Shown here in pieces: positions 4,321 through 50,638 of a stretch of DNA of 64,000 nucleotides. The stretch covers positions 759,501 to 823,500 of the forward strand of contig NZ_CP029353.1 in assembly GCF_003130795.1 (NCBI RefSeq). Direction: 5' to 3'. Every line of letters begins with the position of its first letter. Position 1 is the stretch's first letter. A model generated the notes under the pieces. It saw nothing but the letters and a program-made list of their open reading frames with translations. It ran no database searches and was not told the origin of the DNA. This DNA comes from Azospirillum thermophilum (GTDB taxonomy: Bacteria > Pseudomonadota > Alphaproteobacteria > Azospirillales > Azospirillaceae). Made by a program: the position numbers and the translations under genes.

Positions 4321-5349
4321 ATGACCATCGCCGCCCTTGCCCGCCAGACCGAAACCGCCGTCCAGCAGGCCCGTACGCCGCGCGGGCCGGCGAATGTGGA
4401 GGCCGCGGTGCGCAACGCCAGCGCCCGCACGGGGGTCGATTTTTCCTACCTGATGGAAAAAGCTGCCGTGGAGAGCGGGTACCGCACCGACGTCAAGTCC
4501 TCCACCTCCTCGGCCACCGGGCTCTACCAGTTCATCGACAGCACCTGGCTGCAGACGATGAAGGAGCATGGCGGAGACCATGGCTATGCCAAATACGCCA
4601 ACGCCATCCAGGTCCGCTCCGACGGCCGGCCCTACGTCGCCGACCCGGCGATGAAGCAGGAGATCCTGGACCTGCGCAAGGATCCGACCGCCTCGGCCCT
4701 GATGGCCGCGGAATACACCCGCGACAACAAGGAGTATCTGCAGGAGAACACCAGCCGCCCCGTCGGCTCGACCGAGCTGTACCTCGCCCATTTCCTCGGG
4801 GCGGGCGGTGCCGCGAAGTTCATCAACGCCATGGACGGCAGCCCCAACCGGCCAGCGCGCGACGTCTTCCCCGACGCGGCGGCGGCCAACCGGGGCGTGT
4901 TCTTCGACAAGGAAACGGGCCGGGCCAAGAGCCTGAAGGAGATCTACGACCGCTTCGCCGGCAAGTTCTCGGAAAACCCGCTGTCCTACTTCGCGCCGGC
5001 GCAGGTGGTGACCGACACGGTGCGCAAGCAGGACATGCCCGACGGCTTCACCACCCAGATGCCGATGGCGCCGGCCAAGGCGCAGAACGGCACGCCGCTG
5101 TCGATCTATCAGGTCCTGGCATTGAACGCGCTGGAGACGCCGGACGAGGTCGACAGCGTCAACGGCCGCCAGACCCGGCCGCGCGACAAGGAGCACCGCC
5201 GCATGCGCGACGAGCCGATCCGCGCCGACCAGCCGGGCGCCGACCAGGGGGTCGGGCTGGGCTTCGGCCTCGGGCTCGGCCGCGTGGTGGGGACGGAGTC
5301 CGGCATCGCGGCGGGCGGCCCGGCGGACACGGCCACGGTCAGGACCTGA
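4321..5349 (+). CDS. Lytic transglycosylase (SLT-like domain) protein
   Basis: This 342-residue protein has a soluble-lytic-transglycosylase fold near its N-terminus. The likely catalytic glutamate is E51 in KAAVESGYRTD, and the typical GLYQFIDSTW motif is at residues 67-76. It should cleave peptidoglycan glycan strands. I chose the ATG preceded by GAGAGGGG, because the longer upstream frame lacks homology-like character and has no better ribosome site. No clear signal peptide is visible, so export, if any, would be non-classical. The C-terminal third is low in recognisable structure, and its last 40 residues are rich in Gly and Leu. The neighbours are unrelated metabolic and ParA genes. Confidence 0.78.
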   Translation: MTIAALARQTETAVQQARTPRGPANVEAAVRNASARTGVDFSYLMEKAAVESGYRTDVKSSTSSATGLYQFIDSTWLQTMKEHGGDHGYAKYANAIQVRSDGRPYVADPAMKQEILDLRKDPTASALMAAEYTRDNKEYLQENTSRPVGSTELYLAHFLGAGGAAKFINAMDGSPNRPARDVFPDAAAANRGVFFDKETGRAKSLKEIYDRFAGKFSENPLSYFAPAQVVTDTVRKQDMPDGFTTQMPMAPAKAQNGTPLSIYQVLALNALETPDEVDSVNGRQTRPRDKEHRRMRDEPIRADQPGADQGVGLGFGLGLGRVVGTESGIAAGGPADTATVRT

Positions 5350-5368
5350 CGGGAGACCGCTGCTCCTC

Positions 5369-6016
5369 CTATCCGGCCCGCGCCAGGATTTCCTCGGCCA
5401 GAGCCTGCATCTCCGCCGCGGCCAGCGTCCGGCGCACCCCTTCGGTGACGGAGAGGCCGGTCAGCAGCGTCCCGGCATAGGCGGTGCGGTTGCCGATCTG
5501 GGCGGCCGCCAGCTCGACGGCCGGCGGGTTCGCCAGCTCCTGCACCTTCGCCACCAGCTCGTCGGCGATCTTCGCCCGCGGCGGGACGCGGTTCAGCACC
5601 AGGAGCAGCCGCCGCTTCTCCTGCGCGGCAAGGTCGAGCGTGGGATGCACGGCCCACAGATCCATCGGGCTCGGCTGCACCGGGGCGACCACCAGCGAGG
5701 CGGCGCGGACGGCGATGCGCGCCTCCGTCTGGGCGTGGGGCGGGCTGTCGATGACCACCACATCGTGATCGCGGGCCAGCTTCTCCACCTCCGCCTGGGT
5801 GCGCCAGCCGGTGATCTGCACATGGGTGAAGCCGGGAGCGCCGCCGGTCGCCGCCATCCGCACCGCGTGCCAGCGCGTCAGGCTGCCCTGCGGGTCGATG
5901 TCGACCGTGGCGACGGAGCGGCCGAGCTGCATCCAGGCGATGGCGAGGTGTGCGGCCAGCGTCGTCTTTCCGGCGCCGCCCTTCTGCTGCGCCACGGTGA
6001 AGACCTTGCCCGCCAT
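5369..6016 (-). CDS. ParA family ATPase
   Basis: This is a small MinD/ParA-type ATPase of about 215 residues. The deviant Walker A motif KGGAGKTT lies about 11 residues from the chosen start MAGKVFTVAQQ, followed by a DIDPQGS switch region and VVVIDSPPHAQTE. Such orphan ParA proteins position plasmids, chemoreceptor clusters or other cargo. No parB-like partner lies beside it, so the cargo is unknown. Two further in-frame ATGs, at 6031 and 6028, would add five residues. It converges with the transglycosylase gene, with only 19 bases between the stops. Confidence 0.85.
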   Translation of the reverse strand: MAGKVFTVAQQKGGAGKTTLAAHLAIAWMQLGRSVATVDIDPQGSLTRWHAVRMAATGGAPGFTHVQITGWRTQAEVEKLARDHDVVVIDSPPHAQTEARIAVRAASLVVAPVQPSPMDLWAVHPTLDLAAQEKRRLLLVLNRVPPRAKIADELVAKVQELANPPAVELAAAQIGNRTAYAGTLLTGLSVTEGVRRTLAAAEMQALAEEILARAG

Positions 6017-8167: not shown

Positions 8168-9583
8168 ATGACCGTCGCCGCCGCTCTCGACCAGATCCGC
8201 GCCATCGTGGGTGCCAACGGCATCCTGACCGAGCCGGGGGACATGGCCCCCTACCTCGCGGAATGGCGGGGACGCTTCAAGGGCAGCAGCCCGGCGGTGG
8301 TGCGTCCGGCCAGCACGGAGGAGGTGGCGGCCGTCGTCCGGGTCTGCGCCGAGGCGGGCATCCCCATCGTGCCGCAGGGCGGCAACACCAGCCTCGTCGG
8401 CGGCTCCATCCCCTACGAGGAGGGGAGGGAGATCGTGCTGAGCCTGTCGCGCATGAACCGCATCCGCGACATCGACCCGCTGAACTACACCATGACGGTC
8501 GATGCCGGCGTGGTGCTGACCACCATTCAGGGTGCGGCGGCCGACGTCGACCGGCTGTTCCCGCTGAGCCTGGGGGCGGAGGGCACGGCGCAGATCGGCG
8601 GCCTGATCTCCACCAACGCCGGCGGCATCAACGTGCTGCGCTACGGCAACGCCCGCGAGCTGGTGCTGGGGCTGGAGGTGGTGCTGCCGGACGGGCGCGT
8701 CTGGGACGGCCTGCGCCGGCTGCGCAAGAACAACACCGGCTACGACCTGAAGAACCTGTTCGCCGGGGCGGAAGGCACGCTGGGCATCATCACCGGCGCC
8801 GTGCTGAAGCTGTTCCCGCGCCCGCGCCAGTCGGAGACCGCCTTCGTCGCCGTCCCCTCGCCGGCCGCCGCCGTGGAACTGCTGGCCCGGCTGCGCGAGG
8901 CGACGGGCGACGCCGTGTCGGCCTTCGAGCTGATGTCGCGCCGCTGCCTGGAGTTCGCGATCCGGCATGTCGGCGGCAGCTTCGACCCGCTGTCGGAGCC
9001 GTCGCCCTGGTATGTGCTGACCGAGCTGACCTCCGGCACGAGGTCGGATGCCTTCCGCGAGGCGGTGGAGACCGCGCTGGGCGAGGCGTTCGAGGCGGAG
9101 CTCGCCACCGACGCGGTCATTGCCCAGTCGGAGACCCAAGCCAAGCAGCTCTGGTTCCTGCGCGAGGCGATCGTCGAGGCGCAGAAGCACGAGGGCGGCT
9201 CGATCAAGAACGACGTGTCCGTCCCGGTCTCCCGCGTCGCCGAGTTCATCGAGCGGGCGCAGGCCGCGGTGGAGGCCGCCTGCCCGGGCATCCGGCCGAC
9301 CCCCTTCGGCCATGTCGGCGACGGCAACATCCACTTCAACCTCAGCCAGCCGGAGGGGGCCGACACCGCCGCCTATCTCGCCCGCTGGGACGAGATCTGC
9401 CATGTGGTGAACGAGGTGATCTTCGCGCTCGACGGCTCGATCTCCGCCGAGCACGGCATCGGCCGCTTCAAGAAGGACGAGATGCCGGTCATCAAGGGGC
9501 CGGTGGAGTTCGACCTGCTGCGCGCCGTCAAGGCCGCCCTCGATCCCAAGGGGCTGATGAATCCGGGCAAGATGCTTCCGTGA
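8168..9583 (+). CDS. FAD-linked D-2-hydroxyacid dehydrogenase (D-2-hydroxyglutarate dehydrogenase/GlcD type)
   Basis: The 471-residue protein has a PCMH-type FAD-binding domain (about residues 40-215, with PQGGNTSLVGGS at 69-80 and GGLISTNAGGINVLRYGN) and a C-terminal FAD-oxidase domain. The latter carries FGHVGDGNIHFNL and EHGIGRFKKDEM, which include the metal-binding histidines. This is the layout of D-2-hydroxyglutarate and D-lactate dehydrogenases, which oxidise a D-2-hydroxyacid to the keto acid. The exact substrate cannot be read from sequence. D-2-hydroxyglutarate is attractive because an enzyme predicted to make it is encoded at 916. The gene is read toward leuC, but leuC has its own promoter. 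Confidence 0.85.
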   Translation: MTVAAALDQIRAIVGANGILTEPGDMAPYLAEWRGRFKGSSPAVVRPASTEEVAAVVRVCAEAGIPIVPQGGNTSLVGGSIPYEEGREIVLSLSRMNRIRDIDPLNYTMTVDAGVVLTTIQGAAADVDRLFPLSLGAEGTAQIGGLISTNAGGINVLRYGNARELVLGLEVVLPDGRVWDGLRRLRKNNTGYDLKNLFAGAEGTLGIITGAVLKLFPRPRQSETAFVAVPSPAAAVELLARLREATGDAVSAFELMSRRCLEFAIRHVGGSFDPLSEPSPWYVLTELTSGTRSDAFREAVETALGEAFEAELATDAVIAQSETQAKQLWFLREAIVEAQKHEGGSIKNDVSVPVSRVAEFIERAQAAVEAACPGIRPTPFGHVGDGNIHFNLSQPEGADTAAYLARWDEICHVVNEVIFALDGSISAEHGIGRFKKDEMPVIKGPVEFDLLRAVKAALDPKGLMNPGKMLP

Positions 9584-9670
9584 TCCGGCCCGGCCGCCGG
9601 ACCGCCACAGCCCTGCCTGCGCCACAAAGTTGCGCCTGACAGGGCTGCGGCGAAAGACGGTTGACCATAC

Positions 9671-9699
9671 TTGTCCCCGCCGCGACAGAAGGCTATTGT
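9671..9699 (+). promoter_or_regulatory. Candidate sigma-70 promoter of leuC
   Basis: A -35-like TTGTCC and a -10-like TATTGT are separated by exactly 17 bases, ending 49 bases before the leuC start. This is a pattern match only. Confidence 0.45.
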
Positions 9700-9748
9700 G
9701 CGGCCTCTGTTCACCTGGCACCTGTCGTTTCCCGAGAGAGATTCCGCG

Positions 9749-48597: not shown

Positions 48598-49002
48598 TCA
48601 CCCGCCCGACCTGCCGCCGCCCGACCGGCATGGTGGACGATCCGGCGACGGGGCCGCGCTTCCGACGGCGGTCTCGCGGGTGTTGATCCGAGCCGACCTC
48701 CGCCGGGCGGGGCGGCGGGCGCGGGCGCGCTCCGCCACCAGCTCCTTCAGGCCGCGCGGAATGCGCGTCCGGTCGGCCCAACGAACCATGAGGCCGGCCG
48801 CGCGGCATTCGGCAGCCATTTCCCGGCCGTTCTCGTACCGGTGCTGGTCCAGCAGAGGCCAGCCGTCCAGCCTGCGGTAATCGAACGGACGGCCGTCGAC
48901 ATAGTCCCGGAACCCCTCGAAGAACCGGGGATGCAGCAGCACCGGCCTGGCCTCGCGCCAGGACCGCGCCCCGAAGAAGCGGTTGTTGGTGATTCCACTC
49001 AT
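48598..49002 (-). CDS. Unknown small protein, second gene of a Zur-box-linked pair
   Basis: The 134-residue product is not recognised. Its first 90 residues are rich in aromatic and charged residues (FFGARSWREARPVLLHPRFF, DYRRLDGWPLLDQHRYENG), and its tail is a run of Arg, Ala and Ser. There is no signal peptide, membrane helix or cysteine cluster. AGGGGG sits eight bases before the ATG. The ATG overlaps the stop of the preceding 83-residue gene by four bases (ATGA), which strongly supports both being real and co-translated. The pair diverges from the AztD gene. Confidence 0.6.
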   Translation of the reverse strand: MSGITNNRFFGARSWREARPVLLHPRFFEGFRDYVDGRPFDYRRLDGWPLLDQHRYENGREMAAECRAAGLMVRWADRTRIPRGLKELVAERARARRPARRRSARINTRETAVGSAAPSPDRPPCRSGGGRSGG

Positions 49003-49250
49003 TGAAGCGCCCCCTGCGGGACGCGGGGCGTGACGAGAACGGTGCGGCCAAGCTCGCCGAGGAGCGCGGCGGTCGCCGCGGGGCCCTCCAGGGCGGTCAG
49101 GCGGTCCACCGCCTCGATCATCATCGCCCAGGCGACGATGCGCTCCGGCAGACCTTCCTCCCCTCCGTCCGTCCACACGGCCCGCACCAGTTGGAGCGCC
49201 GGCCCAAGCGCATCTGGAACGCCGTCGGAGTCTATGACCTTGGTCATCAT
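48999..49250 (-). CDS. Unknown small protein, first gene of a Zur-box-linked pair
   Basis: The 83-residue product (beginning MMTKVIDSDGVPDALGP) looks all-helical, with conserved-looking stretches LQLVRAVWTDGGEEGLPERIV and MMIEAVDRLTALEG. I recognise no family. It overlaps the following gene by four bases. Its start lies 27 bases from an AT-rich palindrome resembling a Zur operator, which it shares with the divergent AztD gene. A role in zinc limitation is therefore a reasonable guess from context alone. The ribosome-binding site is weak. Confidence 0.6.
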   Translation of the reverse strand: MMTKVIDSDGVPDALGPALQLVRAVWTDGGEEGLPERIVAWAMMIEAVDRLTALEGPAATAALLGELGRTVLVTPRVPQGALQ

Positions 49251-49276
49251 TCACTCGCAGGGGTTTGTCGGTATCA

Positions 49277-49295
49277 TATGTAACGTTATAACATA
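49277..49295. promoter_or_regulatory. AT-rich palindrome resembling a Zur box
   Basis: TATGTAACGTTATAACATA is a near-perfect inverted repeat in very GC-rich surroundings. Its TGTTATAAC-GTTACA form resembles Zur (Fur-family zinc repressor) operators of Alphaproteobacteria as I remember them. A -10-like TATAAC lies inside it, with TTGTCG 16 bases upstream, in the direction of the AztD gene, so a bound repressor would block RNA polymerase. Confidence 0.65.
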
Positions 49296-49384
49296 GCATC
49301 TACTGGATGCAGCAGTCTTCCTGCAACCAGGACGGACGCCCGGCTTGCCCGGCGTCCCTGCACCGCACCGAAAGGCGAAGTTCG

Positions 49385-50638
49385 ATGACGAGGTGGGATA
49401 TGAACGGCTTGCCATTCCTGGCGACACTGCTGCTGCTTGGTGTTGCGGCCGGTGGTCTCGCGGCCGGTCCGGCACGGGCCGAGGACAGCAGGCATGCGCA
49501 GACGCGTGACGGGAGCGCGTCGCATTACCGGCTGTTCGTCGGCGATCATGCGGAAGGAATCGTGCGGGCCATCGACCTTCGGACCGGGTCCAACGTGGGA
49601 ACGTTCAGGATCGACCGGACGCCGGCACTGACCCGCAGCCTGAGCGGACGCACGGTCTTCGCCGTCCAGGGAGACGCCGGCAACGTGTCCGTGATCGATA
49701 CCGGCGTCACGGTCGAGGATCACGGCGACCATGCCGACCTGAAGATCCAGGACGCCAGACTGCTGCCGACGGTGATCACCGGGACCGCGCCCGCGCACAT
49801 CGTGGAGGGATCCGGGGTCGTTGCGCTCTTCGACGACGGCACGGGCGAGGTCGCCCTGTTCCGGGAAAGCGAGCTTTCGCAGCCATCCTTCGCCGCGCGC
49901 AGGCTGAGGCCGACCGGCGCCCATCATGGCCTCGCCGCCCCGATGGGCAGTCATCTGGTCGTCTCGGTGCCGTCCGACGCAGCCGACAAGCCGCGCCCGG
50001 GTCTCATGGTCGTCGACGAGCAGGGCCATCAGGTCGGCGCCATGACGAGCTGTCCCGGTGTGCACGGGCAGGCCCAGTCGGGCGGGATGTTCGCCTTCGG
50101 CTGCAGGGACGGCATCGTCCTCGCCCGCCCGGCCACCGGGCTGAAGCCGCCGACGCTGCAGCACCTCCCGACCGCAGGGCTTGGCGACGGCTATGTCTCC
50201 ACCCTGAAGGGCGGTTCGGCGATGCAGTTCTTTCTCGGCAATTTCGGACCGAACGCCGTCGTCATCATCGAGCCCGACACGCCTCGGCCCTTCCGCCGGA
50301 TCGACCTGCCGGCACGCCGGGTGGATTTCGTCCTCGATCCGTCGAAGGCCGAGCGCGCCTACATCCTGACCGAGGACGGCAAGCTGCACGTCCTCGACAT
50401 CCTGACCGGTGCCATCGAGCGGAGTGCCCAAATCACCGGCCCCTATTCGATGGATGGTCACTGGCGTGCCCCGCGCCCGAGGCTTGCCGTCGCGGGTGAC
50501 GATGTGGCGGTGACCGATCCGCTCAAGGGGGTGGTGCGGCTGGTATCGGCCGCGACGCTGGAAGAGCGGCGTACGATCAAGGTGGAGGGCATTCCCTACA
50601 CCATCGTGGCGGTCGGCGGTTCCGGGGCCGACCACTGA
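49385..50638 (+). CDS. aztD: Periplasmic zinc metallochaperone AztD
   Basis: The 417-residue protein has a signal peptide (cut after about residue 32) and the AztD beta-propeller signature: HYRLFVGDHAEG, VFAVQGDAGNVSVI, EDHGDHADL, GAHHGLAAPMGSHLVVSVP, CPGVHGQAQSGG, FLGNFGPNAVVIIEP, PYSMDGHW and the ending IVAVGGSGADH. AztD binds zinc through histidines and acidic residues and hands it to the solute-binding protein AztC of the AztABC importer. Those transporter genes, usually adjacent, are not in this window, so this is an orphan copy. A Zur-like box lies about 90 bases upstream. A start 15 bases later (MNGLPF) is possible. Confidence 0.88.
   Translation: MTRWDMNGLPFLATLLLLGVAAGGLAAGPARAEDSRHAQTRDGSASHYRLFVGDHAEGIVRAIDLRTGSNVGTFRIDRTPALTRSLSGRTVFAVQGDAGNVSVIDTGVTVEDHGDHADLKIQDARLLPTVITGTAPAHIVEGSGVVALFDDGTGEVALFRESELSQPSFAARRLRPTGAHHGLAAPMGSHLVVSVPSDAADKPRPGLMVVDEQGHQVGAMTSCPGVHGQAQSGGMFAFGCRDGIVLARPATGLKPPTLQHLPTAGLGDGYVSTLKGGSAMQFFLGNFGPNAVVIIEPDTPRPFRRIDLPARRVDFVLDPSKAERAYILTEDGKLHVLDILTGAIERSAQITGPYSMDGHWRAPRPRLAVAGDDVAVTDPLKGVVRLVSAATLEERRTIKVEGIPYTIVAVGGSGADH

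Follow-up and report, generated by a model that had tools for sequence, protein, structure and literature searches.

What might a gene for the zinc-binding protein AztD do opposite two small genes of no known family, in a genome in which the partner genes aztABC were not found? This question is raised by a locus of Azospirillum thermophilum that lies within the 64-kb stretch of DNA analyzed here (positions 759501-823500, referred to as the window). Based on sequence comparisons, we propose that the locus is a divergent switch controlled by the zinc regulator Zur, in which the two small genes, termed A and B, form a zinc-starvation unit. We consider this very probable; the assessment covers the switch and the zinc-starvation role and excludes the biochemistry of B.

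The aztD gene (49385..50638) lies on the forward strand and encodes a predicted periplasmic zinc-binding β-propeller protein. Judged by eye from a signal-peptide-like start, translation likely begins at 49385 or 49400 and not at the open reading frame start at 49307. Genes A (48999..49250, 83 amino acids) and B (48598..49002, 134 amino acids) are located on the opposite strand, and the start codon of A is 29 bp away from the operator core. A preliminary description of this DNA had reported that the two small genes overlap by ATGA and that an AT-rich site stands between the two arms. Both observations were confirmed, with the stop codon of A (TGA, 48999-49001) running into the start codon of B (ATG, 49000-49002). 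The same description had called 49277-49295 a near-perfect palindrome, which did not hold: only 6 of the 9 pairs match in this 19-mer, and when the window was scanned for AT-rich stretches of 17, 19, and 21 nucleotides in which 7 or more of 9 pairs match, 1, 1, and 0 places were obtained, respectively, with 49277-49295 not among them. As a palindrome the site is ordinary; what makes it exceptional is its score as a Zur motif. Sequences downstream of aztD that might be remnants of a transposase had no match in Pfam.

The putative Zur-type operator (49280..49294, forward strand, GTAACGTTATAACAT; core at 49280-49292) is embedded in this partial palindrome. It is identical in 14 of 15 bases to the motifs upstream of pden1338 and pden4139 listed for Paracoccus denitrificans (PMC5387054, Table 7), where DNA of these two promoter regions was used for gel shifts and where, as is predicted here, znu genes are under this control. 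With a matrix built from the five MAST-listed motifs of that study, the site at 49280 scored 30.4 bits, compared to 11.4 bits for the best independent place in the 64-kb window. The core pattern GTWAYRWYRTWAC, which was derived from the sites in front of the A-B genes of relatives, occurs exactly twice in the 6.78-Mb host genome, compared to no occurrence of the reversed-pattern control, and the second site lies between the divergent znuC(B) and znuA genes. In 45 genomes of the genus, we found 144 exact core sites and 52 matches to the reversed control, with at least one core site in 44 genomes. By itself the core pattern is unspecific, and a fair share of its genome-wide matches may be due to chance; in view of the 52 control matches against 144, a lone match does not constitute proof. 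The genomic context is more informative in that znuA and znuC flank the operator in 21 of 30 loci obtained from the genus search, each from a different genome. The other nine comprise five with another of the sought genes (B; a COG0523 gene; a gene for a ZnuC-like ATPase; aztA; A-B with COG0523 and WD40 genes) and four with none. At approximately three sites per genome, about 2e-4 sites are expected by chance per 450 bp.

The identification of aztD was borne out by the NCBIfam model NF038015, which matched over its full length (positions 1-356) with 354.6 bits (E = 4.5e-106), although the cut-off of 400 bits was not reached. Homology to the structures 6cmk (344 bits) and 6ck1 (296 bits) was also detected, and all ligands of both zinc sites known from the propeller structures 6cmk, 6n01, and 6ck1 are shared, including the C-terminal histidine. 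In the numbering of the open reading frame, counted by hand from the alignment, H164, H207, and H253 align to His124, His167, and His218 of site 1 of the P. denitrificans protein, and H139, H142, D144, and the C-terminal H443 to His99, His102, Asp104, and His408 of site 2. The host differs from the organisms of these structures in that the partner AztC was not found in its genome and only ZnuA is available. The absence of aztABC, noted before for the window, extends to the whole genome, since the only ABC-3 permease and the only ZnuA-family binding protein that we found are both encoded in the znu locus. The arrangement also departs from that in P. denitrificans, where aztD is strongly induced by zinc depletion as part of aztABCD, while the sequence just upstream of it does not follow the Zur consensus and served as a negative control (PMC5387054); the host gene stands alone with its own putative operator. 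Full-length aztD was present in 6 of 36 same-genus relatives and in none of the 24 genomes covered from the rest of the class (a seventh same-genus match of 53 residues, in genome G012, was dropped), and all six relatives carry the operator upstream of the gene, as two overlapping copies. An AztD encoded away from a transporter is not unheard of, as a ZnuA-family gene accompanies nearly half of the AztD sequences (577 in the network) according to PMC6689063. An AztD that occurs without AztABC provides a natural test of AztD function in the absence of its known partner.

Genes A and B are real, and their products appear to represent two undescribed protein families that would add to the predicted zinc-starvation response. 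When a database of 5.8 billion proteins was searched, scoring of the roughly 8,000 candidates that shared most words yielded 49 A and 51 B proteins, including those of the window, and the names shown for them were hypothetical or uncharacterised. Neither A nor B matched a Pfam (E up to 1) or NCBIfam model, in agreement with the earlier impression that the small proteins resemble nothing known. In B, only about the first 100 of 134 residues are conserved. The core QxRYENGRE as well as His24, Glu57, Glu61, and Glu65 were kept in all 21 aligned members, and Cys66 in 20 of them. All 21 are basic (pI 9.2-11.5), whereas the pI of A was below 7 in 24 of 25 members, a few of which are near neutral. 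B is predicted to be helical, with most of residues 15-96 at a pLDDT above 90, and A to form three helices (pLDDT 82.8). Foldseek searches against the PDB retrieved no match for B (best E = 0.96) or, including a second look, for A (best E = 3.3).

Further searches with these families returned several candidates that we did not retain. The sole Pfam line obtained with the 21 B members at E values up to 10, Arc-like DNA binding, concerned one member (E = 1.3) and was taken as chance, as was the single match in a profile search against solved structures (E = 0.59). PHROGs searches with four B and three A members gave just two weak matches, both to families that lack an assigned function (E = 0.31 and 0.19). 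In a viral library, B was matched by three small phage proteins without names, with a probability of 0.99-1.0 (E = 0.008-0.057). When B was compared with phage DNA, one weak match was obtained (E = 0.04), the reading frame of which did not look B-like by eye; with another B member, the best match had an E value of 1.

The distribution of B in relatives provides the main evidence for a role in zinc starvation. Besides the host, 13 of 36 same-genus relatives carry B, with A adjoining it in 12 of these (a weak 34% match in genome G025 was dropped). B is accessory, and most genomes of the genus are without it. Class-wide, with 12 candidates scored per genome, B was found in 4 of 385 genomes including the host, all from one family. 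A further genome scan gave 23 loci, 8 of which had already been counted, so that 29 distinct B loci are available with that of the window. These are related and not independent, and two of them (L095 and L097) come from one metagenome-assembled genome. Most of the named carriers belong to Azospirillum, and the scan also yielded Inquilinus-type records. In 26 of the 29 loci, the 450 bp preceding B contain the operator, exactly in 21 and with one mismatch in 5. In the other three, B stands inside a run of genes, and the operator, with at most one mismatch, precedes the first gene of that run. A was scored beside B in 17 of the 29 loci. The locus from Arenibaculum (L093) was scored as being without A, although an A-like open reading frame (E = 4.8e-8) lies downstream of B.

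The neighbours of B point in the same direction. A gene for a COG0523 GTPase is near B in at least 12 of the 29 loci and aztABC in at least 4, these counts being lower bounds due to short fetched stretches at three loci (L083, L086, and L098). In five loci, COG0523 and A-B or B point away from each other on either side of a single operator, namely in Skermanella (L087 and L092), A. oleiclasticum (L088), Azospirillum sp. RU38E (L101), and Niveispirillum sp. SYP-B3756 (L102). Since COG0523 occupies there the place that aztD has in the host, the divergent arm looks like an exchangeable slot. The Arenibaculum run reads aztA-aztB-aztC-COG0523-WD40-B with an exact operator before aztA; its AztA passed the NCBIfam cut-off (226.1 bits, cut-off 220), and AztB (252.4, cut-off 280) and AztC (322.4, cut-off 350) fell short. 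In the two Inquilinus-type loci (L103 and L104), COG0523-WD40-B is followed after about 750 bp by aztA-aztB-aztC, and a one-mismatch operator precedes COG0523; the best operator-like site upstream of aztA in these loci has three mismatches. Pairs of COG0523 and WD40 genes with Zur sites have been described for COG0523 subfamily 5 (Haas 2009, PMC2770081). Here, such pairs are divergent from A-B in the two Skermanella loci and in A. oleiclasticum, and in Arenibaculum and the Inquilinus-type loci they share a run with B. In P. denitrificans, a COG0523 gene and two hypothetical genes likewise stand in a run under a Zur motif (PMC5387054), a likeness by arrangement.

Two Niveispirillum loci (L099:9400-11983 and L095:9451-11877) carry B followed by genes for an ABC ATPase, an FtsX/MacB-type permease, and a DUF3299 protein, with the domains checked in L099. 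This setting possibly represents a further zinc-linked arrangement. It resembles a zinc-regulated gene run beside PA4063 in Pseudomonas aeruginosa.

Overall, the recurrence of the operator upstream and the COG0523 and aztABC neighbours make it very probable that A-B is a Zur-regulated zinc-starvation unit. The proposal of such a unit in the preliminary description is supported by these data, with the operator in front of B or its run in 29 of 29 loci, and homologues of the small proteins were found near zinc genes in relatives, the opposite of what would have spoken against it. As to whether the small proteins travel with aztD or with Zur boxes, the association with the operator stood and that with aztD did not. 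In all five genomes besides the host that contain both aztD and B, the two are separated by over 140 kb or sit on separate contigs, and aztD and A-B each have their own operator. The pairing, seen in one of six genomes, is peculiar to the host, and A-B travels with the operator, not with aztD.

Several features of the Inquilinus-type loci were recorded alongside. A small predicted membrane protein with a histidine-rich N-terminus is encoded just before aztA (L103:9840-10004 and L104:9870-10040; no Pfam match for that of L103). L103 additionally contains a GFA-family gene (PF04828) between B and aztA (9288-9707) and a FUR-family gene (5341-6003) whose best NCBIfam match is Zur. The record itself, NZ_VCCH02000011.1, is titled Mycobacterium sp. 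KBS0706 but agrees with Inquilinus limosus (L104) in gene order and sequence, so that it is probably misnamed.

From these data, the following course of events can be proposed. Under zinc-sufficient conditions, Zur would occupy 49280-49294 and keep both arms off. Upon zinc starvation, both arms would be released. AztD would be exported and bind scarce periplasmic zinc as a reservoir, which it might possibly donate to ZnuA, the one binding protein of that family that the genome yielded. A and B would be co-produced in the cytoplasm as a starvation-response pair consisting of the basic B and a mostly acidic partner A. Zur binding, the zinc response, the handover from AztD to ZnuA, and the A-B complex are all steps that we infer. 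The handover is weakened by the finding that the P. denitrificans AztD does not transfer zinc to ZnuA (PMC6689063). The scheme gives a clear prediction of when A and B are made in plant-associated and soil alphaproteobacteria.

What B does within such a response may be read in two ways. According to the first, B handles zinc or another metal in the cytoplasm together with COG0523 GTPases, whether as their client, as their regulator, or as a zinc buffer, and A stabilizes it. The proximity of B to COG0523 genes in at least 12 loci, five of them divergent across one operator, suggests such a function, and the conserved His24, Glu57, Glu61, and Glu65, together with Cys66, could serve as ligands. 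However, B matched no family for which a metal site is known, the cysteine is absent in one member, and the five cobW-family genes of the host are not located at its two exact operator sites. We regard this reading as possible, yet short of probable.

In the second reading, which we put forward only tentatively, B would act on ribosomes or RNA as ribosome modulation factor (RMF) does. Specifically, B would be an RMF-type factor that silences ribosomes under zinc starvation, A would hold or guide it, and the neighbouring COG0523 GTPase of relatives would take part in the manner of the mycobacterial MRF-MPY system; this version is doubtful. Extended to the A-B pair of Azospirillaceae and Inquilinus-type bacteria as a whole, with B as a diverged RMF-like protein, A as its acidic partner, COG0523 completing the system in relatives, and silencing or protection of ribosomes as the outcome, it becomes rather unlikely. 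B resembles RMF (PF04957) in being small, basic, and helical with a weakly similar motif register, but it is about twice as long, stays below every sequence threshold, and gave a weak structural match. The comparison was hypothesis-driven, as the motif likeness was noticed first and four RMF sets were tried afterwards. PF04957 matched none of the 21 B members at E values up to 10, and the Pfam cut-off was not reached. Alignment of B to RMF with hhalign fell into the expected register, with a probability of only 0.5-2.4%. The score was reached by 12 of 100 shuffles with the gammaproteobacterial set, by 3 of 100 with the alphaproteobacterial set, by none of 100 with the combined set, and by 5 of 300 once phage sequences had been added, which lowered the score from 16.9 to 15.7, so that the profile match is a weak one. 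In the VIA second look, four nitrogenase delta-type subunits appeared at the same low Z as two RMF structures.

In the viral library, B weakly matched proteins of Serratia phage PS2 (49 amino acids, E = 1.4) and Caulobacter phage CcrSC (44 amino acids, E = 2.6). Two proteins that score over the RMF cut-off, PS2_033 and CcrSC_gp271c, have these lengths. However, the examined features of PS2 include one other gene for a protein of 49 amino acids, PS2_148, the product of which is not RMF-like, and the matched phage proteins are thus not surely identical to PS2_033 and CcrSC_gp271c. A PF04957 search of 41 genus genomes (E up to 1) gave no place at B and no match in the host genome. A segment scored over the cut-off in 3 of the 41, and a class-wide search (E up to 1e-4) returned 2 of 142 genomes. 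PF04957-like segments, often with an NPHP motif and mostly inside larger open frames, were noted in several Azospirillum genomes (L105-L121).

For a link between Zur and RMF, the precedent in Escherichia coli is weak: Zur bound an rmf probe in vitro, while deletion of zur left the rmf transcript at the parental level (PMC10003395). The COG0523 neighbourhood is suggestive because the mycobacterial MRF is a zinc-starvation-induced CobW-domain protein that is described as recruiting MPY, a ribosome hibernation protein (PMC7174638). The analogy is one of parts only, zinc starvation and a CobW-family protein adjoining the candidate, and the NCBIfam MRF model gave the Arenibaculum COG0523 protein 36.9 bits (cut-off 375), as general family likeness would. 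In the open-licence PMC literature, we found no zinc-controlled ribosome factor for these bacteria and, judging by the listing, nothing on A-B in work on Azospirillum Zur. Should B act on ribosomes, a lack of zinc would be linked to the control of translation in a new way, and the system would be a counterpart of MRF-MPY with a different ribosome-binding part.

Two further explanations concern the Zur-controlled unit itself. The operator could be real and A-B a mere passenger without zinc function that a rearrangement placed beside aztD, as the separation of the two in five of five other genomes and the absence of B from most genomes of the genus might suggest. This is very improbable given that A-B or B has kept an operator of its own in 26 of the 29 loci, in several settings and genera. 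That the site belongs to another FUR-family regulator (Fur, Irr, or Mur) is slightly less credible still, for although the host has four FUR-family genes, operator sites stand at znu genes and 14 of 15 bases agree with published Zur motifs.

Among the four FUR-family genes, the one at G000:C2:1085295-1086269 is the probable zur of the host, as it has Zur as its best NCBIfam match (110.8 bits, cut-off 167); it adjoins a COG0523 gene. The latter encodes a very histidine-rich stretch, and neither of the two exact operator sites of the host is located there. Four other genomes (G002, G010, G027, and G032) contain seven to eight operator matches each, compared to one to three for the reversed control, and perhaps have larger Zur regulons than the host.
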